This document shows, piece after piece, positions 527-52,791 of a DNA stretch of 64,000 bases (positions are counted from its first letter, which is position 1; each line of letters begins with the position of its first letter). The DNA is from Glandiceps talaboti (Eukaryota > Hemichordata > Enteropneusta > Spengelidae): the NCBI RefSeq assembly GCF_964340395.1, contig NC_135563.1, positions 3,232,922 through 3,296,921 of the forward strand, given 5' to 3'. The notes beneath the pieces were generated by a model. It was not told where the DNA came from and did not search any database. It saw nothing but the letters and a program-made list of their open reading frames with translations. A program made the translations under genes and the position numbers.

Positions 527-838
527 ATCCTTCATAAATTCTTCTTTTTTGAATTTCTGGACCGAGTCTACTGCACTCTTTTCCAGTTTCTCCTTGTACA
601 TGTTACTCAGTTCTCTCTCTGCAGCCCCTGAGCTTTTGCCAGCAACAAGGGTGTAAGAGCTATCCTCAGCACGAGCTCTTCCACGGGCTTGTACCATTGC
701 TATCTCATTGGTGACAAGATTGTATCGGATCACAATGTTACATTCTGGGATGTCAAGTCCTTCTTCTGCTACAGTTGTTGCTATCAGACAATTCAGTTCA
801 CCATCTCGAAACTTACGAATGATATCTTGTTGTTCTTT
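527..838 (-). CDS. IFIH1-like: RLR exon 10: helicase motifs V and VI
   Basis: Residues 765–868, 104 codons, phase 0 at both ends; acceptor AATTTAG, donor GTAAGT. It carries [20 protein letters not shown], motif [16 protein letters not shown] (784–798) and motif [14 protein letters not shown] (813–824) with the arginines that contact ATP. The start of the bridging helices follows ([20 protein letters not shown]). It is the last exon I can support; the C-terminal zinc-containing RNA-binding domain is expected left of position 1. Confidence 0.95.
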
Positions 839-1380: not shown

Positions 1381-4300
1381 CTGTCAATTTTCATGACAGT
1401 GGACATGTCACAAAGAATGACACAATAAATACAAATAAGGAGTCACTGAGTTATATTAATTCTTACTCCATAGATACCACCTAGCTATATGAGCCAGCAC
1501 TCACTACAATCAAACTAATGAGGGCAGTATGATAGGTCAAGGTACTTCTGTGGAAATATTCATTTACCTGTGTCATTGCAGCACTTTTACTACTACTTGT
1601 TGTACCAGTTCCTGTCAATCTCTCAACTTTCAGAATCTTCTTCAATTTTGGTGTGTCTTGAATCCATGAAACGAGTGCTTTGGTTGACTGACGAGTACGT
1701 GTAAAAATAATACAGCGAGCATTTATCTTGTCTGTGTACTCTTCCAAGATTTGATTCTTTAACTTCAACAACTTTGGGTTTTCAAATTCCTTCTTCTTGC
1801 TCAGTTTCATCAGTTTCACAAGACGTCCTACAAACAGAAAACAATAGAGTTGTCATCTGTACTCCAACATCAAAGTCACCTGTAAGTTTAGTTATCTAAT
1901 TTCCCACAACTGGCTATACATCTACATGACTGTATATATCATGTATGATCTGGTGTATTTCATTTTTGACATGACTTTCAGAGTCAAAATACAATAACTT
2001 TGCTCTTCGTTACCAAAAACATACATAATGTATCATTATTAAGCATTTGCCTTACCGAGTAATTGGAAATAGGGAAGTCATTCAATTTTTTCTTGTGCTC
2101 CAGCAAAAGTAGGATATTTATGTGTAATGAATCAGATAATATGAGAATATTAGTCTGTATGTGCATTTTTTGTTTCATTGTAAGCCTATCCCTCTACAGT
2201 GTAAATGTTTATATCATTCCCTGTAGAAGTCAAAATATGAGATTAAATAGGTCACAGTACACATGTATGTTTGTTAATTCATTTGTTATGCAGACATGCC
2301 CATTACTATGGTTACAGGAGGGGGGGGGGGGTGTGCGTGCACCATTATAACCTTTTCCATATGTATGGAAATTCAATTCATAGTATCCTTGTATAGCTTA
2401 TATCTAGTTAGTAAACAGTGTTTGTCATTTTATTTCTATAACACATATCTAGTTAGTAAACAGTGTTTGTCATTTTATTTCTATAACACATATCTATTTA
2501 GTAAACAGTGTTTGTCATTTTATTTCTATAACACATATCTATTTAGTAAACAGTGTTTGTCATTTTATTTCTATAACACATATCTAGTTAGTAAACAGTG
2601 TTTGTCATTTTATTTTTATAACACATATCTAGTTAGTAAACAGTGTTTGTCATTTTATTTTTATAACACATATCTATTTAGTAAACAGTGTTTGTCATTT
2701 TATTTTTATAACACATATCTATTTAGTAAACAGTGTTTGTCATTTTATTTCTATAACACATATCTATTTAGTAAACAGTGTTTGTCATTTTATTTTTATA
2801 ACATATCTACATTGTATTTAGTAAACAGTGTTTGTCATTTTATTTTCAATCCTTGTCACCTTCAAACAAGTCCATCAAAGCTTCATCTGTTGCATCAAAT
2901 CCCTGTCTGCGTTCTTCTTCGCTGTCATAGAATTCCTCTAGATATTTGATGGCGTCTACCATACGAACACTGTCATTAATCAACAAGGCATCATTGTACT
3001 TTCTAAGGTGTTCTGATACAGTCATCATGGAGCGGTTTTCTTTTTGGACAGCTGTAACCAAACCAAAGAAATCAAATTGAATGTATCAAAGATTACTTGT
3101 ACTGCTGCATGTGCATACTTGTGGTTTTTACATTGCAGTGTAATACACAAAACATTATTGCATACCTACATACAAATGATGGTGCACTCATTTCTTGTAC
3201 ACTAAAGTGTGATCATACAATGATTTTTGTAGAAATTTGCTGTTTCAGATATACATGTACATAGTATGCATTATGTAATAACAACAAAACCCCATGCCAC
3301 ATGAGTTCCAAAGTGGGTACTCAGGGGTAGTTTGACTCATGCTTGCAATGTTTTCTGCTGCACTTTCACTGACTATATATGCTTATGAAAGTATGACAAC
3401 AGAGAACACTGCAGGCAGTGAGGGGTGAATGTATATACTACCATTGATAATTACAGGCAGTGAGGGGTGACTGTATATACTGCCATTGATAATTACAGGC
3501 AGTGAGGGGTGACTGTATATACTGCCATTGATAATTACAGGCAGTGAGGGGTAACTGTATATACTGCCATTGATAATTACAGGCAGTGAGGGGTGATTGT
3601 ATGTACTACCATTGATAATTACAGGCAGGGAGGGGTGATTGTATGTACTACCATTGATAATTACAGGCAGTGAGGGGTGATTGTATATACTACCATTGAT
3701 AATTACAGGCAGTGAGGGGTGACTGTATATACTACCATTGATAATTACAGCCAGTGAGGGGTGACTGTATATACTGCCATTGGTAATAACAGGCAGTGAG
3801 GGGTGACTGTATATACTACTATTGATAATTACAGGCAGTGAGGGGTGACTGTATATACTACCATTGATAATTACAGGCAGTGAGGGGTGATTGTATATAC
3901 TGCCATTGATAATTACAGGCAGTGAGGGGTGATTGTATGTACTACCATTGATAATTACAGGCAGTGAGGGGTGACTGTATGTACTACCATTGATAATTAC
4001 AGGCAGTGAGGGGTGACTGTATGTACTACCATTGATAATTACAGGCAGTGAGGGGTGACTGTATGTACTACCATTGATAATTACAGGCAGTGAGGGGTGA
4101 CTGTATATACTACCATTGATAATTACAGGCAGTGAAGGGTGACTGTATATACTGCCATTGATAATTACAGGCAGTGAGGGGTGATTGTATGTACTACCAT
4201 TGATAATTACAGGCAGTGAGGGGTGACTGTATGTACTACCATTGATAATTACAGGCAGTGAGGGGTGACTGTATATACTGCCATTGATAATTACAGGCAG

Positions 4301-22300: not shown

Positions 22301-25300
22301 TTTCAACTAAGGCAAGTGGCCATCTCAACCGTGGTACAGACTTGTCTTCCACAAGAACAACGTCGCCCACCCGAATTTGATTTTGTAAGGCCCCCTTCCC
22401 AGAAATTCTATCTTTTTCACGTAATGTATTAAGATAATCTTGAGACCATCTCTTCCAAAAATGGCTGTGAATTTTCGCCAAATGCTCAGTCCTCCGTTGG
22501 AGGTTTTCATGATTACCAAATGTTGGGTCATTAAGTTCGTCTTCATCACTTGTGTAATAAGGTAAAGGTGTGATGAGACGGCCATGTAGCAAGTGTGAAG
22601 GGGTTAAGGGTTGTAAGTCGTTAGGGTCGGCGGAAAGATAAGTAAGCGGTCGGTCATTTAAAGTCGCTTCAATTTCAGTCAGAACAGTCTGTAATTCGTC
22701 AACTGACACAAAGGTGCGACCGAGAACTTTTCTGAGGGAAGTTTTCGTCAAACCGATAAGTCTCTCCCAGAATCCTCCAAACCAGGGAGCACGTTTGGGT
22801 ATGAAGGACCATTCAATGCGATGATTTGCTAAGTAATTTTGAACGGGTGTTGAATTCAATAACTTTCCGATTTGATCAGCAGCTGACAAATATGTGGACC
22901 CATTGTCTGACATAATTTTGCGTGGTAGAGAACGTCGAGCTGCGAACCTTCTGAAGGCGCGAAGGAAAGTTTCAGTTGTTAAATCCATGACTAATTCTAA
23001 GTGTATCGCCCGGGTTACGGCGCACGTAAATAGGCAAATGTATGCCTTTCGTTCTGATTTCTCAACCGAGACATAAACTGCGCCGGTGAAATCCACTCCA
23101 GTAACCGTGAAAGGTGGAGCGTTACGTAGTCTACTACTCTGCAATGGTGCGGGAATGGGTTTTTTGTACGATTTACCACATACTAATTTACAGACAACAC
23201 ATTTTCTCAACAAAGATCTCAAAAACGGTCGAATTTGTGTAATCCAAAATCTCTGGCGGATATGTGTGATTGTTGTCTGTGATCCAGAATGCTTTACTTG
23301 TAAATGAGCGGCGATCACCACAAGTTTTGTGAAGTGATTTTCTCGTGGGAGAAGTATTGGAAATTTAGCATCGCAACTCAAAGGGGCGTTATGAAGCCTG
23401 CCACCAACACGGATAAACCCTTCCTCGTCTAGAAATAAGCGAAGTTGATTGGCTAACGGACCTGCGAATTTCTGTTTCTTACTCAACGCCGTAATTTCGG
23501 CAGTATATGCGCGATTTTGAACGTCATGTATCCATAGTTTTTCTGCGGCGTCGATCTCTTGAGCAGTCAGGCAGTCGCCATGACGACGGTCATGTCCTGT
23601 GACCTTCAAATTGTTTATGAAACGTAAGACATACGCACTTATGCGTAGAAGTTTTGATAAGGAACTATATTTGCGCGAGTCGATAACGTTAGCTATACCG
23701 GGGTATGTAGAAACCTTGTGTGTAATTTGGTTGTCGTTTGTCGAAACGACTTCATCAGCGATGTGTAACACTTGACTATCGAAAGTATCACAAACAGGCC
23801 AGTCACCGAATTTTAGCCATTCCGGACCATACCACCACAGACTGTTGTCTGTGAGTTGGGTTGAGTGAATTCCGCGAGATAGTAAATCAGCTGGATTATC
23901 AGCTGTAGGACAATATTTGTACTCACTAATAATTTCGTTTGCTTTGATTTCGGTGACTCTATTGTTTACAAAACAAGGTAGTTTCTTGTTGCCTTGTAAC
24001 CAGTGTAGAACAATTTGGCTGTCAGACCATAGAAAACACTTGTTGATATTGATTTGTTCGCTGAGACTGGAATGAACAAATTTCAATAAGCGTGATCCTA
24101 TCAATGCTCCCATAAGTTCGGCACGTGGGATTGTTAACGATTTGATTGGAGTCACTCTACTCTTAGACATTACAAGTGCAGTTTCGTTTGACTTTACACA
24201 GCGTAAATATGCTACAGCGCCGTAAGCCTTTACACTGGCATCTGAAAATACATGTAACTCAAATGATCCTTCCTCTGTAGGTGAATCAAATAGTTGACGT
24301 GGAATTTGGGTATGAGTAACGTTGTGTAGTTCGCGGTAAAGCTTGACCCATTCGTCACGGAGATTGTCGGGTAGTGGTTCATCCCACTGAAGTTGAACCT
24401 TCCATAATTTCTGAACAAAGATTTTCGCATTAATATGTACGGGTTGAATAAATCCTAGGGGGTCGTACAAACTTGCAGTTGCGCTAACGACTTCTCGTTT
24501 TGTAACGTATGGCAGACAATCAGATTGTGCTAAATCTTTCTTCGGGAAACCAAGTAAATCAGAATTTGTATCCCATCGCAAACCAAAAACGTTAGTAATC
24601 GACTCTGAACAAGAAATATTTGCCTTCGTGGCTATTTCTTTTAGTTTTGTGCTATTCGTGGCCCATTCTCTTAGGTTAAATCCGCTTGATTTCATGAGAT
24701 TTAAAGCCGTAGTGTAGTAATTTATGAGTTTCCGTTCTGTGTTTTGTCCGCTCAAAACATTATCTACATAGATATTCTTGCTCAAATCTGAGGCAATTTC
24801 GGAACCATCATTTTCTAAGTGAAACTTTAAAGTGGAGTTCAGAATGAATGGTGAACAGGCTGCGCCAAAAAGTATTACCTTGAAGCGGTAAATATCAAAT
24901 GAACTGTGTGGGTCGTGTGGATCCGATATCCACATGAATTTAGTGAAATCGCGATCGGATTCATCGAGACCGACGTGAAGAAATGCTTTCTCGATATCAG
25001 CGGAAACGCCAAATTTATGTAAACGAAAACGCATGATGATTGAAGCGAGATCATTTAGAAGCGATGGACCCGCATCTAAACAATCGTTCAGGCTAGGATG
25101 ATTCCCGACTTTACAGCTACAATCGTAAACTATTCTAATAGGCGTTGTCTCGGAATTTTTCTTCACGGGATGATGTGGTAAATAATGACCTAAAGTCACA
25201 TCATCATGAGGTACTCTTTCAATGAAATGGCGTGTTAACTGTTCTTTGATCAGTCTATCGTACACCTGTCTAGTCTCCGGAGTCAGTCGTGTGGTCATAG

Positions 25301-28300
25301 CGCGCGTTCTCTTTTCACATATATTTCTGTTTGTAAGTAGTTGGGGGTGATCGTCGCGCCAGGGAAGTTTCGCTACGTAGCGATCGTTTTCTAAACGGAG
25401 GTGCGTTCGAGTAAAATTGTCGTAGGTAATTTCGCGTTGCTGCGAATCATCAGTTATGCCAATACTTTCAACATCCCAAAAACTTTGAAGTAAAGAATCC
25501 TCGTTCGCTGTGTGTGTGGCGACATGCATCACAGTTGAAGTGGGAGAGGGTTTGGAATTTGGTGATTGGAGGGGCCCGGATAACAAATAGCCTAATTTGG
25601 AAGACACTGCTGTGGGTCCCTCACCACGGATGACATGGTCACCAACAAATGAATAATAGTAATCAGCACCGATCAAGATTGAAATTGCAAAGTTTTGCTC
25701 ACTAGATACTGGATGTGCTAATTCTAATCCCTGCAAATATGGTAATCTGGCAATGCTAGCACTTGATCTTAAATAATTTCTAAGTGGTGTTGTAATCTGA
25801 GGAACAATTAATGCACGTATAATGACATTAAAACCATTAGGTGTAATTACCGTAATATCTGTGATCTTCATTGATCTCAGCCCTGTAGATTTTGCTCCGA
25901 GTGTAGAAACGTTTATTGTCTCTGAGTCACAATTGTCAATGTCTATTCCGATCGATTTTGCCGTTCCTTCGGTCACGAAGCTTCTTTGCGATCCATCGTC
26001 GAATAGTAGTGTTGCCGATGTAGACGTTGTAGGTCCCTTGGTAGCGATGTCTGCAACGGCGGTCTTCAGTAGTACTGGTGAATTGCGGCTGATATCCGAT
26101 GATACACATGCGTGGACGTCATTCGTTGGCGGGGATTGGTTTGCCGTTGTCTCCCTGCAAATCGCTGTATGGTGTTTGCGTTTGCAAATCTGACATGTGA
26201 ATTTCGATTTGCAGTCCGAAACGCGGTGTTTACCGAGACAATTGTAGCACAACCTTTCTCTTTTCACTATTTCCAGTCGTTTGGTTTTGTCTGTGACAAT
26301 TTTGCAGTCCGCTGGTTTGTGTCCTCCTTTCGAACAGAAAACACATTGCAGCAGTCGGGGGTTGGTTCTCTGGTGGGTTGTTGTCAGGAATGAGGCGGTT
26401 GCTGGTGGTTGCCCGGCGTGGTCGATGACGAAGTCGTCGATTGACTCACCAGCTCTGTCTGCGTTGATTTCGAGTAGGATTGCCGCCCGTAAACTTTTCA
26501 GTGTCCATTCTTCTTCTCCTTTGTCGCGTGATATCTGCTTTCTCATCATGGCCGGTAACTTCTCTAGAATCATGGGGACCAGCAAATCTCCATAAGTCTC
26601 TTCCGATTTGCCGAGTGCATTCAAACCACGGATGTAACCTTCAAGTGTATCGTGAAAGGTTACGAGACTGTTAAGTGTTCCAGTAGGCTTTTCCAGTTGC
26701 CATAAGGCCTTCATGTAGGCGCTGATTATTTTCTGTGGTTGTCCGTATCGTTTTGTTAAGAGTTCTATAGCGTTAGCGTAGTTAGCGTTTGAAAGTTGTA
26801 ATCCTTGGATTGTTCTTGCTGCTTCTCCCTCTAAATGGGCCCTCAAATATTGGAATTTTTGGACGTCATCTAGGCTAGTATCGTTGTGTATAGCAGCGTC
26901 GAACCCATCCTTGAACGACGGCCAGGAAAGAATGTCACCACTGAAAGGAGTGAGCGTCAGTTTCGGCAGGTTGACTTTTCGAACTGTTGCTCGTGGGGTA
27001 GAAACCGAAGAGATACTTGCGGTTTCGTTTGTGAGTACGGGTGTCGTCGGAGTTGATTTCCGCTCCAGAAAACTTTCGAATCGCACCAAGTTTTCCGTCA
27101 TCTCGATGTCGTAGTCATCTGCCTCTTCGAATGCTCGATCGTATTCGGCTGCGTCCAAGTGGTCGAGTATCTTGTCGTCCAAAGTCTTGATCTGGTCTAG
27201 TCTCGTAGTCATATTTCTGATCGTTGCTCTGAGTGCGTCGATCTGGGGTTGTTGGATCTCCTCCGTTGAGATAATTCCTTGTGCTTTGTTGATGAGTTTG
27301 GTCATCTGACCGCGGTGGCCCTTTCTGCTTTGCTTGTCCTTCTCCATTTCTGAGATCCTGGTCTCGGCACCAACAAATGTAGCGTGTACACTTGAGAGAA
27401 TGGTTCGTCAGAGAAAGGGAGAGAGGACGAGTGGCCCAAGTAAGAGACGAGATGCGTTGAGTTCAGTGTCTAAATCACATCTGAAGTTTATTACAAACTG
27501 TACAAGTTAAAAGCTCTAATCTACAAGTTCTCATAAAGAAGTGAATTACCTGTTACATCTGTTTAATCAATCTAGATACATCCGTTGTAAGGATGTTTGA
27601 GGTTGTATACACGGCGTCAATCAAAGGAACTACGTGTATGTATAGACTACAGATTATAGTTAATAAAGGAAATGCCATTTCTATCATCAGCTCTTCATAA
27701 TAAACCGAAGATGATGTCATGTGCAAACTATACTGTCGGGAGTGGCATGATTAGTAATGAATATGACGTTAAACTAGTAATTAACATAATTGACAATTGA
27801 TGGGAGGAGTTAAACTACACGTGGTTTCCAACACATACATGTATACACATACACTGTACATAGATTTGTGTCACCTAAAACTAAACCAGCTATACACATA
27901 CACAGATGTAGCAGTGTTCAAACAAATAGTTTTTGTACCAGGTTGGTCAATTTGGTGTACAGTTCACTCCACCCAGCAGTTAACTTTAATATGTTACTGT
28001 TTTAAATGATTTTAAGGATGACGCACATGATAACAGAATACAGTATGATAATAGTCCAACCATAGAATTATGGGGAAAGCAAGCTTCCTCATTATACATG
28101 ACCTTTAGTCTTACATTGATTATTATCATGTAATGTTTGAGAAATGTTATTTTAATTTGTACATTAGCATGAAGGAACTGTCAACAACATACATGTACCA
28201 ATGTAGAAATGGCCTTCAGATAAACTCACCTCAATGTTGTCAATAGAATGTTTTTATATGGTTTATTGGTTTGATTGTTGAAAATTCAATGTAACATGTC

Positions 28301-37300: not shown

Positions 37301-38693
37301 GGTTGCTTTCCTTGTACGAATATTATTCACTGCTGCCTTCAGTAGGTAAAGCTGGCAAGATCCTTATGCTGGATAAATAATTGTTACATTAAAGTCCAAT
37401 AAATGACCGTGCATGTTATTAATTAAAACAAAACTAATATCAAGTTCTCATTTTCTGTTCTACAAATTCAGAAAAGCATCGATATGATATGATACTACAT
37501 TACATAATTAGCATAACTGACAGACATACACATGTATATATAGCAGTACAATCAACTACTGAATCATGACTCATTGCATCTCTACTAAGCTCACACATAA
37601 TACCTGTGCCTTCCGTACACTGCACAGGTGGAGTGTATTAAATGCATGACTTGTGTAACCTTAAAAGTGAAAGCAACACCTGCATGACTCAGTGATAAGT
37701 ATTTCTTAAAGGGGGCAGAGTATGGTGGAGTGAGGTGTATTTCTTTATCAGGGGCAGAGTACGGTGGAATGAGGTGTATTTCTTTATCAGGGGCAGAGTA
37801 TGGTGGAGTGATATGTATTTCTTAATCCAGGGCACAGTATGGTGGAGTGATGTGTATTTCTTTATCAGGGATGGGGCAGAGGTGTAAGGGGGTTAAGGAT
37901 AATATACCAGTAATACGCTATATACCATTTCATGAAATGTCTGCAGCATAGTGGGCAACTGATGTTGGACAATGGAAATCAAACATACGTTAGTCAAATC
38001 ATGTCCACATACCTGACTAATCATTACCCCTGTCTACTTAACATAGTAATAGATGTACTATTCTCTAATTAATGTACTTTTTCTTCTTTCAACAGGAAAA
38101 TACTAGTGACATAAGGGGTTTTTGTAACTACTTGTCATTAACTCAGACAGACAAGACCTCTTATGTCACTCATATTTTTCTGATCTGCACCACAAAAGTG
38201 GAATCAATGTTCCTAATTAGTGCAAGACTCACCCGATGTATTCTGAGATGAACTTGAATCCCCATTGACAGGAATAGCAGCAAAGCCAGCATTTAGTTCT
38301 TTCTCTGAATTAGAAAGTAATATACTGATTAAACAACAAACAGTCTTGATAGAGAATGAGTTATCTTGCAGGGGTCAAATTTTTTACTTTGAATACAGTT
38401 TTGCCTAATTGCATTGTGACATATTTAGCTAAAACGTGTAGGTCATTAGTCTTATGAGAGTTCTTTACCTACTTTCCTTTACTAGAATGAAGCATGCATA
38501 AAACAAGTAAACCATATCTGTCTGCTAAAGTCTAATAGGGTAAGGCCCTTACACAATTCTATACTAAATCTTTGATGTAACACATGTCAACCACTATATA
38601 AGTTGAATGTGCTGTAATATTATCAGCCATCAGTAAGTAAGCTCTATAGCCCTAGGCTGGTGTATTTCTGTGTACGTTGTGTAAGTGTTTGTT

Positions 38694-38881: not shown

Positions 38882-41800
38882 TTAACAGAGAGAAGAATGA
38901 CTACCTTCCTTTTCTGTGTACCATTCAAGCACACAAATTTGTTAAATTTCAGTGTTGTATGGCTTTCAGGAAGGATATACAGATAGTTTTATACATGTAT
39001 AGATTATGATTGTGTGAATGTGAACAACAGATCATTGTGTGCTTTTTTGGTACATAGAGATATGTAAAATGTACCCTAGTTCCTTTGACATTTTACATGT
39101 ACCTGTGTTCACACAAGCACTACATCTAACATATAGGAAATTATAAATTCAAGTATTACAAGAATTCCACCTCTTTGTGTCAAGAGTTTTAAAACTTTTG
39201 GTCTCGGAAAACATTGAATTGTCAATATTTCATTCAGATAAACTCCGTACCTGCAGTTATCTCATCTTTACTATCAATATCATTACCATCACTTTCAAGA
39301 CCAATAATCTGATGATAAAGATGTGGTGAGTCTTCCTTCAAAGCTTTCAATAATTCAGAAAACCATGTTGGTCCACGTTTTACAAGTCTGCACAGCAATG
39401 TGTTTGCTCCTCTTTTGGGCCCATCATTCCTTTCACAATCATTGCGAATTGTGTGTCTGTCTTCGTCTGTCAAACAGGTTATCTTCTGACAGAGAGTCTT
39501 AGCATCCATATCATTGCCTAAGTCGGGTGCTAGGACAATAAGTAGCTGCTTCTGTGGCAGCAATTCTTCAACATTTTCATCACCACGTAATAACCTGGCT
39601 AAATGGTCACAACCTGTAAGAACAACCATGTGATTAAAAGTGATTGCAAAGTCCTGGAAAAAAACCAAAATTGAACAAAAATTCTGAGACTTTGTGTGTC
39701 CCTAAAAAAAGTTTTCAATGATATGCACCTGAAAATTTGTTGCAATATTACAATCTTCAACTCGTTCCCAAAGACTACGGGGCCTAGAGCAATGCATTAT
39801 ATTATACCAATTACCATAACCACAAAACGGACACTTTAGTCACAACTTTAACTTAGCTTTGGGGTCCTTTTTTCAGAGAAATTAGACTAATATTGGACTT
39901 TAGTGAGAATTTCTGTCAATAGTTTGTTAGAAACCCTTAGAAAGTGGCTCTGCTACAACCATTTTCACATGTCTGTTGTTGAAATTTAAAAAATGTTTCG
40001 CTGTGGATTACGCTCACCATGGAGGTAGAAACACAGTCCTTCCCTAGGCCCTCTATGCATTTAGTAAGCATCATAGTGGCAAGTTTGTATTTCTTCAAAT
40101 CTATTTCAAAATTATTTCTTTCAGCAAATACGCCGCCAGACACCGGGTGTATATTAGTCATTGTGGTGATGTACCACAGACACACTGTCACAAGGAAGTT
40201 CAACCCTGTACCATAGTTTTACATCCAATCGTAAATGTTACGTGCCACATTCGATTTGCCAAATCGTACACATGGATGTGTGTACTCCGTACATGTAGTC
40301 TGTGGGAACACACACACCAGTCTGTATTTTGTAAATGGAAAGAAAAACCTACATCTGCTATACATTAATGACCTGCCACAATTGATTAATTCCAAAATTC
40401 GTTTATTTGCAGATGATTATTTGATATATCACACTATTCATAGCCAAAATGATCATAAAATTCTCCAGGATGACTTACGTCAACTCGAAAGTTGGCAAAG
40501 ACTAAATGGCTAATGCAATTTAATCCATCCAAATGCTCAGTTATCAGAATGACCAGTCCAAGACTCAAACCAAAGACTTTCGATTACATGTTATGTAACC
40601 AGAAATTACACCTGTTGATTCAAACCCATTCCTTTGCGTAGAGCTTTCTTAATATCGACAACACAGTGAAGAAAGCAAATTCTGTCATGGGCCTTGTGAA
40701 AAGAAATCTCCACTTTGCGCCAAAGAAACCAAAGTTCTTGCTTATCAATCAATTGTAGGTACGACCAACACTTGAATATGCTGCTTCAATATGGGATCCA
40801 TACATACAAAAGAACATAACAAAGATGGAGAAAGTACAACGGTCTGCAGCCAGATTCGTTTGTGGTGATTATAATCGACATAGCAGTGTAACAACTATGC
40901 TTGAAAATCATACATTACAAACCCGTAGAAAAGCGGCTAGACTTACGATTCTATACAAAATCAGAAAAGATGATCTGTACGCGTGTCAAAAGTCAATGCA
41001 CAAACGTCTCTCACCACTCTCAGTGAGAAACGTTTGTCTACACGACTCCATCCAGCTAGATATAAACACCTTGATTCAAAAACTGAAATTGTCAAGAACT
41101 CATTTTTTTACCAGAACAATTGGAATGCACTACCCTCTTCTGTCATCGAATCGCCTTCGACATCACCATTCAAGACAAGACTTAGAGATATCTTAACCTT
41201 TGCCCCCCCCCCCCTCCAGCTAGATATAAACACCTTGATTCAAAAACTGAAATTGTCAAGAACTCATTTTTTTACCAGAACAATTGGAATGCACTACCCT
41301 CTTCTGTCATCGAATCGCCTTCGACATCACCATTCAAGACAAGACTTAGAGATATCTTAACCTTTGCCCCCCCCCCCCCCCCCCCCCCCCCCCGGCGTGT
41401 TACTCGTAAAAGGAGGCGGTGTGTCAATTATTTATCCAAAACCTACCGTCAGAATGTTCCAACACTTTTAGAAATTCAGCAAACATTCCCGGTACTTCGC
41501 TTTCGATGACCATACGCACCAGTAATTCTGCAGCCTTTTCCTGTGACTCCCGGTCTTCTACCTTTCGAATGTGTTCTTTTTCACTCCCTGTTATTCCCAC
41601 AGTGAATCGATCGAGAATTTGAGATGGTGTCAAGTCGCGTACAAGTCGTTCAGCGAAAAGTTCAAGTAACCCCTTCTGTTGATCCGTATCGCTTTGTACA
41701 ACCATCCTGATAGCGGTTATGAGTTCGTGTGAGTGGTATCGTTGCAATTCTTCAACATTTTCATCACCACGTAATAACCTGGCTAAATGGTCACAACCTG

Positions 41801-43547
41801 TAAGAACAACCATGTGATTAAAAGTGATTGCAAAGTCCTGGAAAAAAACCAAAATTGAACAAAAATTCTGAGACTTTGTGTGTCCCTAAAAAAAGTTTTC
41901 AATGATATGCACCTGAAAATTTGTTGCAATATTACAATCTTCAACTCGTTCCCAAAGACTACGGGGCCTAGAGCAATGCATTATATTATACCAATTACCA
42001 TAACCACAAAACGGACACTTTAGTCACAACTTTAACTTAGCTTTGGGGTCCTTTTTTCAGAGAAATTAGACTAATATTGGACTTTAGTGAGAATTTCTGT
42101 CAATAGTTTGTTAGAAACCCTTAGAAAGTGGCTCTGCTACAACCATTTTCACATGTCTGTTGTTGAAATTTAAAAAATGTTTCGCTGTGGATTACGCTCA
42201 CCATGGAGGTAGAAACACAGTCCTTCCCTAGGCCCTCTATGCATTTAGTAAGCATCATAGTGGCAAGTTTGTATTTCTTCAAATCTATTTCAAAATTATT
42301 TCTTTCAGCAAATACGCCGCCAGACACCGGGTGTATATTAGTCATTGTGGTGATGTACCACAGACACACTGTCACAAGGAAGTTCAACCCTGTACCATAG
42401 TTTTACATCCAATCGTAAATGTTACGTGCCACATTCGATTTGCCAAATCGTACACATGGATGTGTGTACTCCGTACATGTAGTCTGTGGGAACACACACA
42501 CCAGTCTGTATTTTGTAAATGGAAAGAAAAACCTACATCTGCTATACATTAATGACCTGCCACAATTGATTAATTCCAAAATTCGTTTATTTGCAGATGA
42601 TTATTTGATATATCACACTATTCATAGCCAAAATGATCATAAAATTCTCCAGGATGACTTACGTCAACTCGAAAGTTGGCAAAGACTAAATGGCTAATGC
42701 AATTTAATCCATCCAAATGCTCAGTTATCAGAATGACCAGTCCAAGACTCAAACCAAAGACTTTCGATTACATGTTATGTAACCAGAAATTACACCTGTT
42801 GATTCAAACCCATTCCTTTGCGTAGAGCTTTCTTAATATCGACAACACAGTGAAGAAAGCAAATTCTGTCATGGGCCTTGTGAAAAGAAATCTCCACTTT
42901 GCGCCAAAGAAACCAAAGTTCTTGCTTATCAATCAATTGTAGGTACGACCAACACTTGAATATGCTGCTTCAATATGGGATCCATACATACAAAAGAACA
43001 TAACAAAGATGGAGAAAGTACAACGGTCTGCAGCCAGATTCGTTTGTGGTGATTATAATCGACATAGCAGTGTAACAACTATGCTTGAAAATCATACATT
43101 ACAAACCCGTAGAAAAGCGGCTAGACTTACGATTCTATACAAAATCAGAAAAGATGATCTGTACGCGTGTCAAAAGTCAATGCACAAACGTCTCTCACCA
43201 CTCTCAGTGAGAAACGTTTGTCTACACGACTCCATCCAGCTAGATATAAACACCTTGATTCAAAAACTGAAATTGTCAAGAACTCATTTTTTTACCAGAA
43301 CAATTGGAATGCACTACCCTCTTCTGTCATCGAATCGCCTTCGACATCACCATTCAAGACAAGACTTAGAGATATCTTAACCTTTGCCCCCCCCCCCTCC
43401 AGCTAGATATAAACACCTTGATTCAAAAACTGAAATTGTCAAGAACTCATTTTTTTACCAGAACAATTGGAATGCACTACCCTCTTCTGTCATCGAATCG
43501 CCTTCGACATCACCATTCAAGACAAGACTTAGAGATATCTTAACCTT

Positions 43548-43586
<39 letters not shown>

Positions 43587-43950
43587 CGTGTTACTCGTAA
43601 AAGGAGGCGGTGTGTCAATTATTTATCCAAAACCTACCGTCAGAATGTTCCAACACTTTTAGAAATTCAGCAAACATTCCCGGTACTTCGCTTTCGATGA
43701 CCATACGCACCAGTAATTCTGCAGCCTTTTCCTGTGACTCCCGGTCTTCTACCTTTCGAATGTGTTCTTTTTCACTCCCTGTTATTCCCACAGTGAATCG
43801 ATCGAGAATTTGAGATGGTGTCAAGTCGCGTACAAGTCGTTCAGCGAAAAGTTCAAGTAACCCCTTCTGTTGATCCGTATCGCTTTGTACAACCATCCTG
43901 ATAGCGGTTATGAGTTCGTGTGAGTGGTATCGTTGCTCTCAAACTGAATG
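527..43950 (-). CDS. IFIH1-like: MDA5-like RIG-I-like receptor gene, partial (C-terminus off the left edge)
   Basis: This is the gene-level entry; exons are listed separately. Known role of the family: cytosolic sensing of viral double-stranded RNA by a DExD/H helicase, with signalling through CARDs to MAVS. Ten exons were found whose GT–AG borders and phases fit throughout: 43638–43896, 39251–39613, 38233–38304, 17561–17848, 14070–14486, 12972–13165, 12164–12410, 2860–3051, 1568–1827 and 527–838. They total 2604 coding bases, 868 codons. Order: CARD1 (about residues 1–104), CARD2 (105–200), acidic linker (208–340), Hel1 (345–540), helical insert (540–690), Hel2 (690–868). Human MDA5 is 1025 residues, so only the roughly 150-residue C-terminal RNA-binding domain is missing. 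Motifs V and VI ([18 protein letters not shown]) and the RxxDPF and [12 protein letters not shown] segments resemble MDA5 more than RIG-I. Intron 3 is 20.4 kb and intron 7 is 9.1 kb. An extra in-frame CARD1 exon lies in intron 1. Confidence 0.93.
1089..1378. repeat. ACAG/AC microsatellites and a poly-C run
   Basis: In RLR intron 9, an (ACAG)n tract passes into (AC)n up to about 1206. After a short unique stretch come a C14 run (1281–1294) and a further (AC)n tract (1300–1378). Confidence 0.95.
1568..1827 (-). CDS. IFIH1-like: RLR exon 9: pincer and helicase motif IV
   Basis: Residues 678–764, entering in phase 1 and leaving in phase 0; acceptor TTTGTAG, donor GTAAAT. It contains [19 protein letters not shown] (pincer/Hel2 entry), motif IV as [18 protein letters not shown], and the [17 protein letters not shown] loop that precedes motif IVa. 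The order and spacing match RIG-I and MDA5 Hel2. Confidence 0.94.
2401..2846. repeat. 45-bp minisatellite, about 10 copies
   Basis: The unit begins TATCTAGTTAGTAAACAGTG and is 45 bp. It lies in RLR intron 8 and ends about 14 bp from the exon 8 donor. Because 45 is a multiple of three it gives a long plus-strand open frame that has no sign of being a gene. A G-run (2317–2331) sits to its left. Confidence 0.95.
2860..3051 (-). CDS. IFIH1-like: RLR exon 8: second half of the helical insert
   Basis: Residues 614–677, 64 codons, phase 1 at both ends; acceptor GGTTACAG, donor GTGACA, which departs from the usual GTRAGT. The segment [17 protein letters not shown] is highly conserved in RLRs. It is followed by [16 protein letters not shown] and [15 protein letters not shown] 45-bp minisatellite begins within about 14 bp of the donor, so repeat-length changes happen right next to this splice site. 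Confidence 0.92.
3410..11741. repeat. 42-bp minisatellite, about 198 copies (8.3 kb)
   Basis: The unit begins GGCAGTGAGGGGTGACTGTA and continues through ATACTACCATTGATAATTACA. It fills most of RLR intron 7. Variable sites are mainly C/T in GAYTGTAT, A/G in TATRTACT and A/G in CTRCC. Higher-order structure is visible: about 955 bp at 3785–4740 recurs almost unchanged at 5885–6840 (offset 2100 bp, 50 units), and rare variants such as GTGAAGGGT recur at offsets of 1302 and 798 bp (31 and 19 units). Several units near 9130–9510 are shorter by 1–2 bases. There are stops in every frame. Confidence 0.98.
12164..12410 (-). CDS. IFIH1-like: RLR exon 7: start of the helical insert domain
   Basis: Residues 532–613, phase 0 in and phase 1 out; acceptor CTAACAG, donor GTAAGT. 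It starts [14 protein letters not shown], matching the LCANLD segment of MDA5. It then has [19 protein letters not shown] and [12 protein letters not shown], which match the MDA5 pattern of DPF, IM..IQ and DFGTQ.YEQW. This insert between the two RecA folds is specific to the RLR/Dicer helicase group. The following intron is 9.1 kb, mostly the 42-bp minisatellite. Confidence 0.94.
12972..13165 (-). CDS. IFIH1-like: RLR exon 6: DECH box and motif III
   Basis: Residues 467–531, entering in phase 1 and leaving in phase 0; acceptor ACTACAG, donor GTGAGG. It contains [14 protein letters not shown] with the DECH box (474–477, Walker B and ATP hydrolysis), [10 protein letters not shown], and motif III as [12 protein letters not shown]. 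Most RLRs I know have Pro where this one has Leu after TAS (residue 514). The exon ends QHILQ and joins directly to LCANMD in exon 7, as in MDA5. Confidence 0.95.
13225..13420 (-). mobile_element. LINE/SINE 3'-end-like fragment
   Basis: On the minus strand this segment ends with AAATAAATTTCAATTCAATT, a short A/T-rich tail closing in (CAATT)n, as CR1/L2-like elements and their SINE partners do. No coding sequence is visible, so the family is uncertain. It lies in RLR intron 5. Confidence 0.45.
13421..14069. other. Rest of RLR intron 5
   Basis: Plain A/T-rich intron sequence. I see no gene or element, apart from a short purine-rich stretch near 13950. Confidence 0.6.
14070..14486 (-). CDS. IFIH1-like: RLR exon 5: helicase motifs Q, I, Ia and Ib
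   Basis: Residues 328–466, phase 1 at both ends; acceptor TGTTACAG, donor GTAGGC. It contains the Q-motif-like LRDYQ (345–349) and Walker A APTGSGKT (366–373, with K372 the expected nucleotide-binding lysine). Next come the motif Ia region [18 protein letters not shown] and the Ib-like segment [13 protein letters not shown]. The match to MDA5 and LGP2 Hel1 is clear and without gaps. A short leader ([15 protein letters not shown]) completes the linker. Confidence 0.95.
14573..14991. mobile_element. MITE-like repeat with TAGTCCC ends and two internal units
   Basis: The element begins TAGTCCCCGC and ends CAGGGACTA, so its ends are short inverted repeats (TAGTCCC). Inside are two related units of about 130–140 bp, each starting AACAAAATGGCTGC and GGCAGCCATATTGG-like, continuing through a TATATGTCATAG-like stretch and a TACCAA(C/A)TTTGAA(T/A)(G/A)A stretch. 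The last part has ACGGACGGACGGA repeats. ACA flanks both ends, a possible 3-bp target duplication. It is in RLR intron 4. No protein is encoded, so the superfamily is not assigned. Confidence 0.7.
15475..15810. repeat. 54/57-bp minisatellite, 6 copies
   Basis: The unit contains GTCGGCTATGCATGGGATCC and AGAATTTACTGGAAAGTCTT. Copies differ by a 3-bp TAT indel, so the plus-strand frame stays open ([14 protein letters not shown] per unit). I see no start context, splice support or known family for it. RLR intron 4. Confidence 0.95.
15860..17455. other. RLR intron 4, non-repetitive part
   Basis: A/T-rich intron sequence of 1.6 kb. I see no coding signal or recognisable repeat here on either strand. 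Confidence 0.6.
17456..17540. repeat. (ACAGT)n microsatellite
   Basis: About 17 copies of a pentanucleotide, with one T/A-changed copy. It begins roughly 20 bp from the RLR exon 4 donor. Confidence 0.95.
17561..17848 (-). CDS. IFIH1-like: RLR exon 4: acidic linker between CARDs and helicase
   Basis: This exon has 96 codons, phase 1 at both ends, with acceptor TTTTACAG and donor GTTGGT. The product is strongly acidic and hydrophilic (for example [16 protein letters not shown] and [14 protein letters not shown]), with no recognisable fold, as expected for the linker joining the tandem CARDs to the helicase core. A pentanucleotide ACAGT microsatellite lies about 20 bp beyond its donor. Exon 3 is 20.4 kb away. 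Confidence 0.75.
17965..18266. repeat. Minisatellite of about 53–60-bp units, 5–6 copies
   Basis: Units contain AATAGCTAGTCTGGAAGGTG and TCATGATGGGTGCCCTGAAC. Length variants carry or lack a CATGTATA block. It is the first of four arrays placed end to end in RLR intron 3. Confidence 0.9.
18277..19205. repeat. 25/29-bp minisatellite, about 35 copies
   Basis: The unit is AGTCAATGACACAGTATAAC plus AGTAT. Some copies have an extra AGTC (29 bp). It directly follows the 17965 array. Variants (AGTTTAG, AGTGTAG) cluster on the right side. Confidence 0.95.
19333..20125. repeat. 26-bp minisatellite, about 30 copies
   Basis: The unit is TATACAATGTGACAGCTCTA plus TGGAAG. Some copies lack the GGAAG part. 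RLR intron 3. Confidence 0.95.
20463..21364. repeat. Degenerate tandem repeat, left part, split by the LTR element
   Basis: Imperfect units contain CACCTAAAACTAAACCAGCT, ATACACATACA and GATTTGTCCCACCTACA(T/C)TTTG. The same sequence resumes after the BEL/Pao element at 27834–27905, so this array was the insertion target. Confidence 0.85.
21365..21820 (-). repeat. BEL/Pao 3' LTR (in element orientation)
   Basis: 456 bp. Just inside it, at about 21821–21835, the element strand is purine-rich (GGGCGGGAGGA), as expected for a polypurine tract. Confidence 0.95.
27378..27833 (-). repeat. BEL/Pao 5' LTR (in element orientation)
   Basis: 456 bp, apparently identical to 21365–21820. The interior begins at 27377 with a short segment (TTGGTGCCGAGACC on the minus strand) in the position of a primer binding site. 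The reading frame starts about 30 bp inside. Confidence 0.95.
27834..27905. repeat. Degenerate tandem repeat, right part
   Basis: This continues the 20463–21364 array (CACCTAAAACTAAACCAGCT, ATACACATACACAGAT) on the far side of the LTR element. Confidence 0.85.
27910..30545. other. RLR intron 3, unannotated stretch
   Basis: A/T-rich sequence of 2.6 kb with short direct near-repeats around 28130–28420 (ACATAAACTCA-like phrases). No coding sequence that I can support on either strand. Confidence 0.55.
30546..30612 (+). CDS. Possible terminal exon of a nested plus-strand gene
   Basis: A good acceptor (TACTGTTTGTTTGCAG) is followed by an open segment reading [20 protein letters not shown] then KM and a TAA stop, and an AATAAA signal lies about 110 bp further on (near 30724). 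This is the layout of a last coding exon with a 3' UTR. I recognise no family and found no upstream exon, so it may be chance or the remnant of a processed fragment. Confidence 0.3.
30750..31890. other. RLR intron 3, unannotated stretch
   Basis: A/T-rich intron sequence. No gene or recognisable element seen. Confidence 0.55.
31893..32273. mobile_element. MITE, copy 1 (about 380 bp)
   Basis: This matches 46003–46376 over its whole length with many point changes. The ends are imperfect inverted repeats of about 30 bp: the left end is GCCTAGAAAAGATTGTTTGG then TTC, and the complement of the right end is GCCTAATGAAAAAAAATGTG then TAGTTC. Shared internal phrases include GCCGACCCTAAACTTTTTT, AATAACACAGAGACCAT and AATCTACCTACCCCACCT. 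It is a non-autonomous DNA element by structure; the superfamily is not assigned. Confidence 0.75.
32274..33188. other. RLR intron 3, unannotated stretch
   Basis: A/T-rich sequence with no gene or element that I can support. Confidence 0.55.
33190..33770. repeat. Degenerate tandem repeat of about 110–130 bp, 5 copies
   Basis: Diverged units each run TTTCATTTTTGCTAAAATAT, a GATCA(C/T)(T/A)TG-like stretch, ATTTGGTTAGTGTTGGCCTA and CATTTCTACA. The strong divergence marks it as much older than the other arrays in this gene. Confidence 0.75.
34130..34765. repeat. 53-bp minisatellite, 12 copies
   Basis: The unit begins TATACAAACCCAGTCTATGG and continues ACACATATGACCTAGTAGTT. Copies are almost identical. 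RLR intron 3. Confidence 0.96.
34932..35118. repeat. 26-bp minisatellite, 7 copies
   Basis: The unit is ATTTTTAAATTGGTACAGTC plus CTGTTC, with essentially no variation between copies. Confidence 0.96.
35130..36280. other. RLR intron 3, unannotated stretch
   Basis: A/T-rich sequence of 1.15 kb without a gene or element that I can support. Confidence 0.55.
36285..37082. repeat. 33-bp minisatellite, about 24 copies
   Basis: The unit is GTAGAAATCATTTGACTTAG plus TCAGACTATGTGA. Copies are almost identical, one being 2 bp short near 36933. A 33-bp unit keeps a minus-strand frame open for about 230 codons ([11 protein letters not shown] repeated) in the sense direction of the RLR gene, but nothing indicates it is an exon. 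Confidence 0.97.
37083..38232. other. RLR intron 3, end next to exon 3
   Basis: Contains a degenerate tandem repeat of about 40 bp in four copies (37710–37870, GGGGCAGAGTATGGTGGAGT then GAGGTGTATTTCTTTATCA). The rest shows nothing that I can support. Confidence 0.7.
38233..38304 (-). CDS. IFIH1-like: RLR exon 3: short linker exon
   Basis: This 24-codon exon, too short to appear as a long reading frame, was found by splice phase. The acceptor is TTCAG at 38305–38309 and the donor GTGAGT at 38232, phase 1 at both ends. It encodes [16 protein letters not shown] followed by a serine-rich tail (SSSSQNTSG). It joins exon 2 and exon 4 in frame. It belongs to the flexible linker between the CARDs and the helicase, which is poorly conserved in the family, so support is from splice sites and phase rather than homology. 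Confidence 0.65.
38696..38880. repeat. GT and TATG microsatellites
   Basis: In RLR intron 2, a (GT)n tract, a (TATG)n tract (about 38755–38830) and a second (GT)n tract (about 38840–38880). Confidence 0.97.
39251..39613 (-). CDS. IFIH1-like: RLR exon 2: end of CARD1 and CARD2
   Basis: Residues 87–207, 121 codons, phase 1 at both ends. The acceptor is TTCTTACAG and the donor GTACGG. It begins with the last CARD1 helix ([17 protein letters not shown]). CARD2 follows, with [31 protein letters not shown] and [20 protein letters not shown] in the usual CARD helix spacing and the conserved RG–W–L–L–L pattern of helices 4 and 5. The exon closes with an acidic Ser/Asp stretch that opens the linker to the helicase. 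The 2.2 kb duplication breaks inside this exon at about 39561. Confidence 0.9.
40018..40203 (-). CDS. Possible signal-peptide exon inside RLR intron 1, copy 1
   Basis: This 62-codon open frame starts with ATG and a hydrophobic leader ([20 protein letters not shown]), continues [20 protein letters not shown] and [14 protein letters not shown], and ends at a good GTGAGC donor (40017), phase 0. This is what a first exon of a small secreted protein looks like. I do not recognise the family and find no second exon. It may be a chance open frame or a gene fragment carried into the intron. Confidence 0.25.
40345..41214 (+). mobile_element. LINE fragment (Jockey/CR1-like RT end), copy 1
   Basis: This is the 3' part of a non-LTR retrotransposon, antisense to the RLR gene. 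Frames in order read [20 protein letters not shown] (reverse transcriptase with the FADD catalytic box), then [14 protein letters not shown] and [16 protein letters not shown], and finally [14 protein letters not shown] near the C-terminus. All are typical of the Jockey/CR1-like superfamily. It is 5' truncated and interrupted by frameshifts and stops, so it is inactive. It ends at a poly-C tract. Confidence 0.85.
41051..41396 (+). repeat. Nested 164-bp direct repeat with poly-C tracts, copy 1
   Basis: The last part of the LINE fragment (from TCCAGCTAGATATAAACACC to TTAACCTTTG) is present twice in a row, at 41051 and 41215, each copy ending in poly-C (12 C, then 27 C). A repeat unit bounded by C runs suggests slippage or unequal exchange at the G/C tract. 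The same structure is at 43235–43585 in the second unit. Confidence 0.9.
41447..41797 (-). CDS. Duplicated chimeric CARD1 exon in RLR intron 1
   Basis: This 117-codon exon is open throughout. It has a TTACAG acceptor at its upper end and a GTAGGT donor at its lower end, both phase 1, matching exons 1 and 2. From the amino end it has three parts: residues [18 protein letters not shown], a copy of the start of exon 2; 13 residues [13 protein letters not shown], a translation of what is 5' UTR in the parent copy; and a full CARD1 copy beginning [10 protein letters not shown]. If included, the protein would be CARD1–CARD1–CARD2–helicase with 117 extra residues and no frame change. Whether it is spliced in cannot be seen from the sequence, and an assembly artefact is possible because the copies are almost identical. 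Confidence 0.6.
42202..42387 (-). CDS. Possible signal-peptide exon, copy 2
   Basis: This is the copy of the 40018–40203 open frame made by the 2.2 kb tandem duplication, identical in translation. The same doubts apply. Confidence 0.25.
42529..43398 (+). mobile_element. LINE fragment, copy 2 (from the tandem duplication)
   Basis: This is the same fragment as at 40345–41214, carried along in the 2.2 kb duplication and identical to it as far as I compared by eye, so it is not an independent insertion. It provides an internal clock: any difference from copy 1 postdates the duplication. Confidence 0.88.
43235..43585 (+). repeat. Nested direct repeat with poly-C tracts, copy 2
   Basis: This is the duplicate of the structure at 41051–41396, with C runs of 11 and 35. 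The run lengths differ between the two units while the surrounding sequence does not, showing that the C tracts are the fastest-changing part. Confidence 0.9.
43638..43896 (-). CDS. IFIH1-like: RLR exon 1: start codon and CARD1
   Basis: Residues 1–86 plus the first base of codon 87. The start is the ATG ending at 43896. It lies about 50 nt below the expected transcription start for the TATA box at 43973–43980, and the same frame upstream meets a stop at about 43940. The sequence is a CARD-like helical fold, with key stretches [31 protein letters not shown] and [13 protein letters not shown]. The exon ends in codon phase 1 at a GTAGGT donor (43637). The last CARD1 helix ([12 protein letters not shown]) is supplied by exon 2. 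A near-identical copy lies at 41447–41705. Confidence 0.88.
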
Positions 43951-44276
43951 TGAATTTCGTCAGCATCGTGGATATTTATACTAAATCGGTGTAGTATCGG
44001 TAAAGGTGCTCACAACAACATGTGCAGGGGAGGACCTGACAATCTGTTGTTCATGGGAATCCCAAAATGGCGGACTATCTGATTATGGAACAAGACTACA
44101 TCCGATTGGCTGATACCAATCAATGCCACTACTTTAAACCAATCAACAATGGCATACCTTACGACGGTCATCCTATATTCTAAATATAGGTTGTACAGGG
44201 TTGTCCCGGCAGCAGAGGTAATATTACATAATGACTCACAAACATAGCTGACTAGGGAATTTTCGTTAATCATCAT
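43940..44276 (-). promoter_or_regulatory. RLR core promoter and proximal elements
   Basis: Read on the minus strand. A TATA box (TATAAATA, 43973–43980) predicts initiation near 43945–43950, giving a 5' UTR of about 50 nt. Upstream are a YY1-like CCGCCATTTT (about 44064–44073), CCAAT/ATTGG boxes near 44104, 44114 and 44138, and GAAAATTCCC (44255–44264), one mismatch from the NF-kB consensus. Single motif matches of this kind arise by chance. The TATA placement relative to the CARD1 start codon is the strongest part. Confidence 0.55.
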
Positions 44277-50489: not shown

Positions 50490-51524
50490 TTATCGTTTGC
50501 TGCTTCTACCTGGGTTGCCAGAATGTCTGCGTGTTGTGGTGGCAGGGATGGGCGTTGCTGCTGCTACGTGTACGTGACTAAGACCTTTGTGTGTCGCTGA
50601 ATGGTGTGGTGTTTTCTGCCGTAGTACTGTCCAATCGAAAGAGTAGTCGTACTGGAAGTTCTGTGTGCGGAAGAGGATACGGAACAATTGACGTAGGTAC
50701 ATGTAATCCGGCGTCTCCTCAAATCTCAACCCACGGCAGTAATTCAAATAAATGGAGAACTCCTGAGGATGTCCTTTGCAAAGAACTTCAACGGGTGTAG
50801 ACATTTTCTTCTCCTTAATTTTCTCATACTTCTGTTTCTTGGTGGCTGCTTTCAATCCCTGCCATGGCAAACTAGTCCTGTTAAAATACATTAGTACGTA
50901 CCCCATCGATTCGAGGTCATCTCGGCGGCTCTGCTCAATTCCCAAGTGTGCATTGATACTGGCATACCTGGCTGTGCCTGTCAAATTTTTGTCATCGCGG
51001 TATGGAATGTGCTGTTTCGAACGACTGTCGCGATATTTTTTGGACAAACCAAAGTCTATCAAATACAGTTGATTACAATGCCTACCGATACCCATTAAAA
51101 AATTGTCCGGTTTGATGTCCCTATGTATCAAATTTCTGTTGTGGACGTACTCGATTCGGTTGATCATTTGATCAGCCAACATCAGTACTGTTTTTAGAGT
51201 TAATCTCCGCGAACAATAATTGAATAGGTCTTCTAAGCTTGGCCCAAGTAAATCCATCACGAGAACGTTGTGATCCTTCTCTTGACTGTACCATCGAATG
51301 TGTGGAACTCCGACACCGCCTTGGAGGATTTTATAGATTTTGCTCTCGTACAACAGCTGAGGATGTCTCGCTTTACGTGGTTCGAGCTTCACAGCAACCT
51401 CTTCGCCATTGTGGATATTCACCCCTAAATAGATATCTCCAAACGATCCCGAGCCGATTTTACGGATCAGTTTGTACTTTCCACCGATTACGAATTCGTC
51501 CTTGGCTGTTATTGTGCCTGACAT
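50490..51524 (-). CDS. CSNK1A1-like: Casein kinase 1 alpha-like Ser/Thr kinase, single exon
   Basis: Complete frame of 344 residues. CK1 alpha phosphorylates beta-catenin, Gli/Ci and many other substrates in the cytosol and nucleus; that is family knowledge. Seen in the sequence: glycine loop GSGSFG (24–29), ATP-anchoring lysine in VAVK (K46), catalytic loop HRDIKPDN (D136), DFG as IDFGLSKKY (D154), and CK1's SIN motif in place of APE ([20 protein letters not shown]). Identity to vertebrate CK1 alpha is high through about residue 300, without gaps. The C-terminal tail ([20 protein letters not shown] then [13 protein letters not shown]) is its own. Known animal CK1 alpha genes are split by introns, so a single-exon gene suggests a retrocopy. 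No poly-A tract was seen downstream. It is divergent from the TMEM45 gene. Confidence 0.95.
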
Positions 51525-51915
51525 GGTGAAATGGAAGACTCGGTAATGGAAATAACGGAAAGAACGGCGAAAATCTAGTCTATGAAATTAGATTGTGAAC
51601 CAGGAAGAACAATGTGAAACCTTACAAAACTAGCCCTTCTGCGCATTGGTTGTGCGCGGATAACCCACACGTTGTATTTGCATATATGAATATGTATATT
51701 TATTAGGCACCAGCTCGTTCGAGCACTGCTAGCATGCTGTACAGTAGTACTATACTACAGGCACGACAGGGGGAATCTGTCAGAGGCAGTGAACCGTGAC
51801 ACAGGGCTTGGATCAAACAGTGCACATCGAATTAACCAGTGCCACCAATGCTCTTTTAAATCCTCATTTCTACCTCCGTTTATCGACTTCATAAGTTAAC
51901 CGTGTAATACTAAAG
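51525..51915. promoter_or_regulatory. Shared divergent promoter region
   Basis: 391 bp separate the start codons of the two head-to-head single-exon genes, so both promoters and 5' UTRs must fit here unless distant non-coding exons exist. I see no strong TATA box for either gene. Confidence 0.5.
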
Positions 51916-52791
51916 ATGGGTACTTTCGAAGGACATGCCCTACCAGGCAGTTTTTTCTTTGTATTTGGGATTTGGTGGTTTATCAAGTTTTCATATCGAT
52001 TCATAAGAGATGCCAATAACAGGGGGAAAAACCTGGAAAAGACAAGTCACGGTAAATGGGCGAGGAGGATTGCAAGGCTTAATCTCTCACCCGAACTGAT
52101 AGAAGGCATAATAATATGTTTGATGACATTTACTGGCTTTATTGCTGAACAGTCATGGCCGTATAAGAAGTGGAAGATGTTTGAATACAATACCAACTTG
52201 AACCCACCAGGTAGCGGATTCGTCCATGGAGCCGAATGGCAACACTGCACCATGTATGTGTTTTTCGGCATTTATGGAGCCGTTCTTGTCATGGCACGTA
52301 CATGTGTAACAGGTCTGAAGGAATATGAAACATTTTTCCTTGCACTAGGTTTTTTTGTCGAGGGACTATTGTTTTATTTTCACGTGCATGGGCGAACCTT
52401 CCTCGATATTACTGTTCACTATATGCTGGTTATAGCTGTCGCCATGACCACATTGGTCACACTGGCAGAAGTTTGGCAGAAAAAGGACAAATTGTTACCC
52501 TTTCTTCGTAGCGGTTTGTCGATGGTACAGGGAACGTGGTTCTGGCATGTTGGGTTTATGCTTTACCCACCAAATAATGCCCAATGGGACGAAGATAGCC
52601 ATGCAAATGTGATGTTTGCCACGATGGCGTTCTGTTGGCACGTAGCTGCCAATATTTTCGTTATGGCCGGTATCTATGGAATCGTTTCAATATGCATGCG
52701 AACGAAGAGGGTGTATTCTGTCGAACAAGAGCTCGAAGTTGGTCTCATGAGCAGAGCAAGTGATGGCGATGTATCAAGTGATAATGAGTGA
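51916..52791 (+). CDS. TMEM45-like: TMEM45 family multipass membrane protein, single exon
   Basis: Complete frame of 291 residues; human TMEM45B is 275. The start is in a good context (AAAGATGG) and its MGTFEGHALPGSFFF matches the MANFKGHALPGSFF start of the human protein. Family-specific stretches follow: GFIAEQSWP, WQHCTMYVFFGIYG, FVEGLLFYFHVHGR, MVQGTWFWHVGFMLYPP, and HANVMFATMAFCWHVAA. About seven hydrophobic segments can be counted, consistent with DUF716/TMEM45 topology. The C-terminus is polar and acidic (SRASDGDVSSDNE). Molecular function in this family is poorly known. No intron is visible. Confidence 0.95.
   Translation: MGTFEGHALPGSFFFVFGIWWFIKFSYRFIRDANNRGKNLEKTSHGKWARRIARLNLSPELIEGIIICLMTFTGFIAEQSWPYKKWKMFEYNTNLNPPGSGFVHGAEWQHCTMYVFFGIYGAVLVMARTCVTGLKEYETFFLALGFFVEGLLFYFHVHGRTFLDITVHYMLVIAVAMTTLVTLAEVWQKKDKLLPFLRSGLSMVQGTWFWHVGFMLYPPNNAQWDEDSHANVMFATMAFCWHVAANIFVMAGIYGIVSICMRTKRVYSVEQELEVGLMSRASDGDVSSDNE

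Follow-up and report, generated by a model that had tools for sequence, protein, structure and literature searches.

A probable, very recent tandem duplication and a predicted third CARD exon in an MDA5/LGP2-type receptor gene of Glandiceps talaboti

The window analysed here, a 64-kb stretch of DNA (C16:3232922-3296921), carries on its minus strand the exons of a RIG-I-like receptor (RLR) gene, whose C-terminal exon lies beyond the window. Apart from the duplicated region, which is described below, the gene comprises the following features.

43971 to 43980, minus strand: TATA-like sequence upstream of exon 1, read by eye and located outside the duplication
43638 to 43896, minus strand: coding part of exon 1, from ATG to donor, encoding CARD1 (CARD_2 E 1.4e-12)
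39251 to 39613, minus strand: exon 2, 363 nt, encoding CARD2 (CARD_2 E 4.1e-14), with a donor at 39250
38233 to 38304, minus strand: candidate linker exon, phase 1 on both sides, from frame-consistent splice enumeration
17561 to 17848, minus strand: candidate acidic linker exon, phase 1 on both sides, from splice enumeration, with the donor after 17561 or 17642
14070 to 14486, minus strand: helicase exon with LRDYQ and PTGSGKT, from motifs, Pfam and splice joins
12972 to 13165, minus strand: helicase exon with DECHH and LTAS, from motifs, Pfam and splice joins
12164 to 12410, minus strand: probable helicase/insert exon, assigned from its position and by eye
2860 to 3051, minus strand: RIG-I_C (helicase insert) exon, Pfam PF18119 with E 5.2e-18 for the open frame
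1568 to 1827, minus strand: helicase exon with IIFTRTRQS, aligned to MDA5 within the joined query
527 to 838, minus strand: helicase exon with TTVAEEG and QARGRAR, from motifs, Pfam and splice joins
C16:3231694-3232029, beyond the window, minus strand: CTD exon following the last helicase exon (PF11648, E 7.3e-29)

Between 14.4 kb and 0.7 kb, the helicase motifs follow each other in the expected order on the minus strand. A 402-residue query of helicase and CTD matched solved MDA5 structures best (E 4e-94, 319 bits), then LGP2 (9e-80, 272 bits) and RIG-I (1e-57, 199 bits), as judged from the best 60 of 125 matches. The gene had been described as MDA5-like in the initial annotation, which agrees with this result, and on these matches it is nearer to MDA5/LGP2 than to RIG-I. 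Like members of the MDA5 (IFIH1)/LGP2 clade, it has CARD_2 domains, DExD/H helicase motifs, a RIG-I_C insert and a C-terminal RD, whereas in this assembly a third CARD exon, with a second CARD1 placed ahead of CARD2, sets it apart from that clade. Hemichordate RLRs have been reported (PMC10210618), and in PMC5101713 the Saccoglossus and Branchiostoma MDA5/LGP2 proteins group in the MDA5/LGP2 clade. The mitochondrial sequence of the assembly suggests an enteropneust hemichordate as its source: ATA stands at conserved isoleucines, ND2, COX1 and COX2 show no AAA codon (their translations under codes 5 and 9 give the same K and N), and the genes run ND2-tRNAs-COX1-COX2-ATP.

Frame-keeping GT-AG joins were found for six of the six neighbouring open-exon pairs from the helicase to the final stop of the CTD; the exons for this test were hand-picked, frame-keeping joins arise easily by chance, and at the 1568/838 join the best acceptor has a negative score (-1.2). 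Pfam gave no match for the helicase exon at 1568..1827 on its own, nor for the open frame of the candidate acidic linker exon. Introns of phase 1 connect CARD2, by way of the two candidate linker exons, to the first helicase exon, and what joins the CARDs to the helicase over 25 kb, as a candidate link, is frame, order and orientation. A profile search of the genome gave at least 10 CARD_2 matches, three of which belong to this gene, and at least five RD matches; the remaining RLR loci, whose open frames of 75 codons or more were read by eye, have the appearance of genes with one or two CARDs. Two CARD_2 matches at C14:12744390-12745429 lie on opposite strands, head to head and separated by less than 1 kb, which suggests a pair of divergent CARD genes.

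Between exons 1 and 2 lie the features of the duplication.

41746 to 43936, minus strand: tandem copy A, 2191 bp, with part of the leader, exon 1, intron 1 and the first bases of exon 2
39562 to 41745, minus strand: tandem copy B, 2184 bp, with 0 substitutions relative to copy A
41744 to 41745, minus strand: duplication junction with a 2-bp GC microhomology, the sole point that separates the chimeric exon from exons 1 and 2 in reads
41447 to 41797, minus strand: chimeric exon, 351 nt or 117 codons without a stop, phase 1 at both ends

The two copies are arranged head to tail on the minus strand (copy A at 43936-41746, copy B at 41745-39562). Their BLAST alignment has 2,194 columns, of which 9 are gaps and 0 are mismatches, and the differences are confined to two poly-G runs (35 versus 27 and 11 versus 12). 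The initial annotation had proposed that a 2.2 kb tandem duplication puts a second CARD1 between CARD1 and CARD2; its coordinates check, and the copies are free of substitutions. The 95% upper bound of divergence is 0.14% (2,172 sites), and by this measure the duplication is very recent. Selection on the copy cannot be inferred because there are zero substitutions; the duplication is too young to show it.

A 4,370-base query over the duplication found one full-length place among the matches listed for the 590 Mb, 47-contig assembly. At least 41 other matches, scored in 40 of the 67 candidates, are all partial with 70-88% identity, and by query position all 41 of those listed fall within the two intron copies. 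The duplicated arrangement goes far beyond chance. Parts of intron 1 (40348-41438 and 42540-43543) match many chromosomes at 70-88% identity and look LINE-like by eye. Both intron copies also carry a 100% matched tandem repeat of 163/164 bp with poly-G (41051-41378 and 43235-43560), adjoined by poly-G runs of up to 35. Because it is present in both copies, this repeat presumably predates the large duplication; it is apparently young as well.

Copies without substitutions would also be left by a homotype false duplication, in which the assembly writes a single genomic copy twice. Such duplications are common in assemblies and can be misread as exon duplications (PMC8081667). The mitochondrial contig of the same assembly (C40) carries COX1 three times at 15,435-base spacing, a repeat that is presumably an assembly concatemer, and no alternate or unduplicated haplotype copy with which the locus could be compared was found among the matches listed for this assembly. 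However, the count of N is 0 across the whole window, junction included, and a junction running from mid-exon to mid-exon with microhomology would normally need a supporting read. Moreover, a 2.2 kb unit is shorter than typical long reads. Self-comparison of 147,006 non-N bases, a small and non-random sample made of the window and 10 stretches around RLR loci, gave no other large-unit tandem pair (at least 400 bp, at least 97%); besides the duplication, the filter passed short-unit arrays and one LTR pair. With these observations set against each other, we regard an assembly artefact as unlikely.

Taking the duplication as real, the exon it creates reads, in order, 54 nt of exon 2 (an 18-residue inter-CARD linker), 13 leader codons and the whole of CARD1, bordered by a copied exon 2 acceptor at its start and a copied exon 1 donor at its end. 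The description that had been given of this exon holds in the following respects: the 351 nt at 41797-41447 are open over 117 codons, the acceptor repeats that of exon 2 and the donor that of exon 1 without a sequence difference, and inclusion keeps the frame, with phase 1 on both sides. The exon also codes for a full CARD. Pfam CARD_2 (PF16739) matches it with E 1.8e-12 over the same model positions as it does exon 1 (2-81 of 93), and exon 1, the chimeric exon and exon 2 all exceed the cut-off, giving three CARD exons in the DNA. Among solved chains, the extra CARD was best matched by the first CARD of RIG-I (whole-sequence E 2.5e-5, best single stretch 0.064), with a weaker match to an MDA5 chain (0.09); both comparisons use the sequence alone. 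Through exon 2, there are 324 full codons with the chimeric exon and 207 when it is skipped, and the peptide between the two CARD1 copies has 31 residues, 18 of them natural linker. The exon 1 ATG is preceded by an in-frame stop (43941-43939), which fits its role as the start. The copied exon was also considered as an alternate first exon, which is unlikely since the TATA-like sequence at 43980-43971 falls outside the duplication.

How much luck the open frame required is a separate matter, and here the initial annotation claimed too much. Equal phases on both sides had been taken as a striking sign; however, they are guaranteed because acceptor and donor belong to copies of the same phase 1 intron, and are therefore ruled out as evidence of function. 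What is left to chance is that the length be a multiple of three and that no stop intervene. When leader breaks from 43950, a limit guessed as the transcript start from the TATA-like sequence, were combined with all exon 2 breaks, 5,180 of 19,602 simulated breakpoint pairs were open and in frame (26.4%, about 1 in 4), so that the open frame is not striking either. With leader breaks from 44450, the same 5,180 are found among 201,102 pairs (2.6%), a drop that originates from the in-frame stop at 43941-43939. The real leader break misses this stop by a few bases. The in-frame outcome is mildly lucky and gives no evidence of selection.

Both introns that flank the chimeric exon (1,840 and 1,833 nt) are full copies of intron 1, and its splice sites are the same sequences that any two-CARD transcript must use. 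Since the splice sites are identical and both introns are full copies, inclusion is the default prediction. On a home-made consensus scale, these sites are equalled or exceeded by 4 of the region's 276 AG and 11 of its 328 GT, a count that includes the sites themselves and their copies. Reads of ordinary length are of little help at this locus: the chimeric exon shares its first 54 nt with exon 2 and its end with exon 1, and since the two copies do not differ at their exon edges, short reads at 43638/41797, 41447/39613 and 43638/39613 are indistinguishable. We consider it probable that a very young microhomology duplication has arisen in an intact-looking two-CARD RLR, with a default transcript that would include the predicted third-CARD exon.

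The proposed course of events is short. A tandem duplication with a 2-bp microhomology would have arisen inside a two-CARD RLR gene of MDA5/LGP2 type, with one breakpoint in the leader, a few bases beyond the in-frame stop, and the other at the end of the linker preceding CARD2. The resulting exon would begin with the exon 2 acceptor and linker and end with CARD1 and the exon 1 donor, and default splicing would run from exon 1 to the chimeric exon and then to exon 2. The predicted product is CARD1, a linker of 31 residues (18 natural, 13 from the old leader), CARD1, the natural linker, CARD2, helicase and CTD, a gain of 117 residues. RLR CARDs nucleate MAVS CARD filaments. The extra CARD would perhaps raise the local number of CARDs on dsRNA filaments, and, placed on a longer linker, it could either aid or impede MAVS CARD nucleation. 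A one-step birth of the predicted three-CARD RLR is plausible; the presence of the duplication in the animal, the inclusion of the exon and a protein that works with the extra CARD are inferred.

A duplication that is real may nevertheless leave the protein with two CARDs, if splicing leaves out the chimeric exon, or if the allele is rare and non-functional. The divergence limit of 0.14% (95% upper bound) fits a segregating allele, and the window is repeat-dynamic, with 19 tandem-array rows (some of them overlapping) and a retroelement with identical LTRs. Moreover, an exon derived from a first exon could be without internal-exon enhancers. However, the acceptor and donor and the introns on either side were copied from intron 1 at full length, and skipping would need a 4,024-nt intron that crosses an identical acceptor and an identical donor. 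A two-CARD protein from a duplicated gene has, in our estimate, a low probability. Returning to the reading with default inclusion, the duplication may well be a recent, possibly polymorphic and near-neutral allele. The further step, to an expressed and functional three-CARD RLR in which more CARDs per filament subunit would lower the adaptor-nucleation threshold, with two- and three-CARD alleles in the population as a natural experiment, we hold to be very unlikely.

Tandem exon duplication by intragenic rearrangement is a known process. The present case resembles it in that the duplicate lies in tandem, the intron was carried along and the product is phase-symmetric, whereas here the new exon is a two-exon chimera with leader made coding and not a clean single-exon copy. 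RLR architectures have been sorted into 11 types, among them forms with one or two CARDs and forms with other domains; most cnidarian RLRs have one CARD, and lophotrochozoan RLRs carry death, DED, IG, SAM or CASc domains at the N terminus (PMC8998645). The N-terminal signalling module thus varies here as it does in these invertebrate RLRs with domain grafting; in contrast to them, CARD1 was duplicated within the same gene and nothing was grafted. RIG-I and MDA5 are described with two CARDs, with single-CARD exceptions, in PMC2686710. The CARD counts described for RLRs are thus zero, one and two. That the order CARD1-CARD1-CARD2 departs from known layouts, as had been suggested, is supported by its absence from the RLR layouts in the passages compared from PMC8998645 and PMC2686710, the details of the single-species types X1-X4 aside.

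The wording 'three card' has 0 occurrences in PMC8998645, and no three-CARD RLR was found among the open-access papers searched, a scope outside which most subscription papers lie. In three of the six listed papers with the same wording, it refers to residues (PMC9557057), to a reference title (PMC6194174) or, at the 12 of 13 places covered in PMC3932521, to MAVS layers, and not to a three-CARD RLR. In PMC3932521 it is argued that MAVS initiation needs at least two molecules poising three CARDs for the first layer, and the tandem CARDs of RIG-I are described as held back by a short helix.

If it is expressed, a naturally arisen CARD1-CARD1-CARD2 allele would open the relation between adaptor nucleation and CARD number to tests in the living animal and would capture a step in domain-number evolution before selection or decay left marks. 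If the duplication is false, the locus would be a clear example of assembly errors imitating new protein architectures.

Several other features of the window were seen alongside the gene. An LTR retroelement (21365-27833, minus strand), which we take to be BEL/Pao-like, sits in the intron that separates the CARD2 exon from the helicase exons. It has a single polyprotein frame free of interruptions, and since its two 456-bp LTRs are identical, it is a recent insertion. A minisatellite of 8.3 kb at 3412-11745, with about 198 copies of a 42-bp unit, lies within a helicase intron and is open in one frame over long stretches. In addition, long uninterrupted frames at 50490-51587 (minus strand) and 51895-52791 (plus strand) are possibly single-exon genes, presumably for a casein-kinase-1-like protein and a TMEM45-like membrane protein, respectively.
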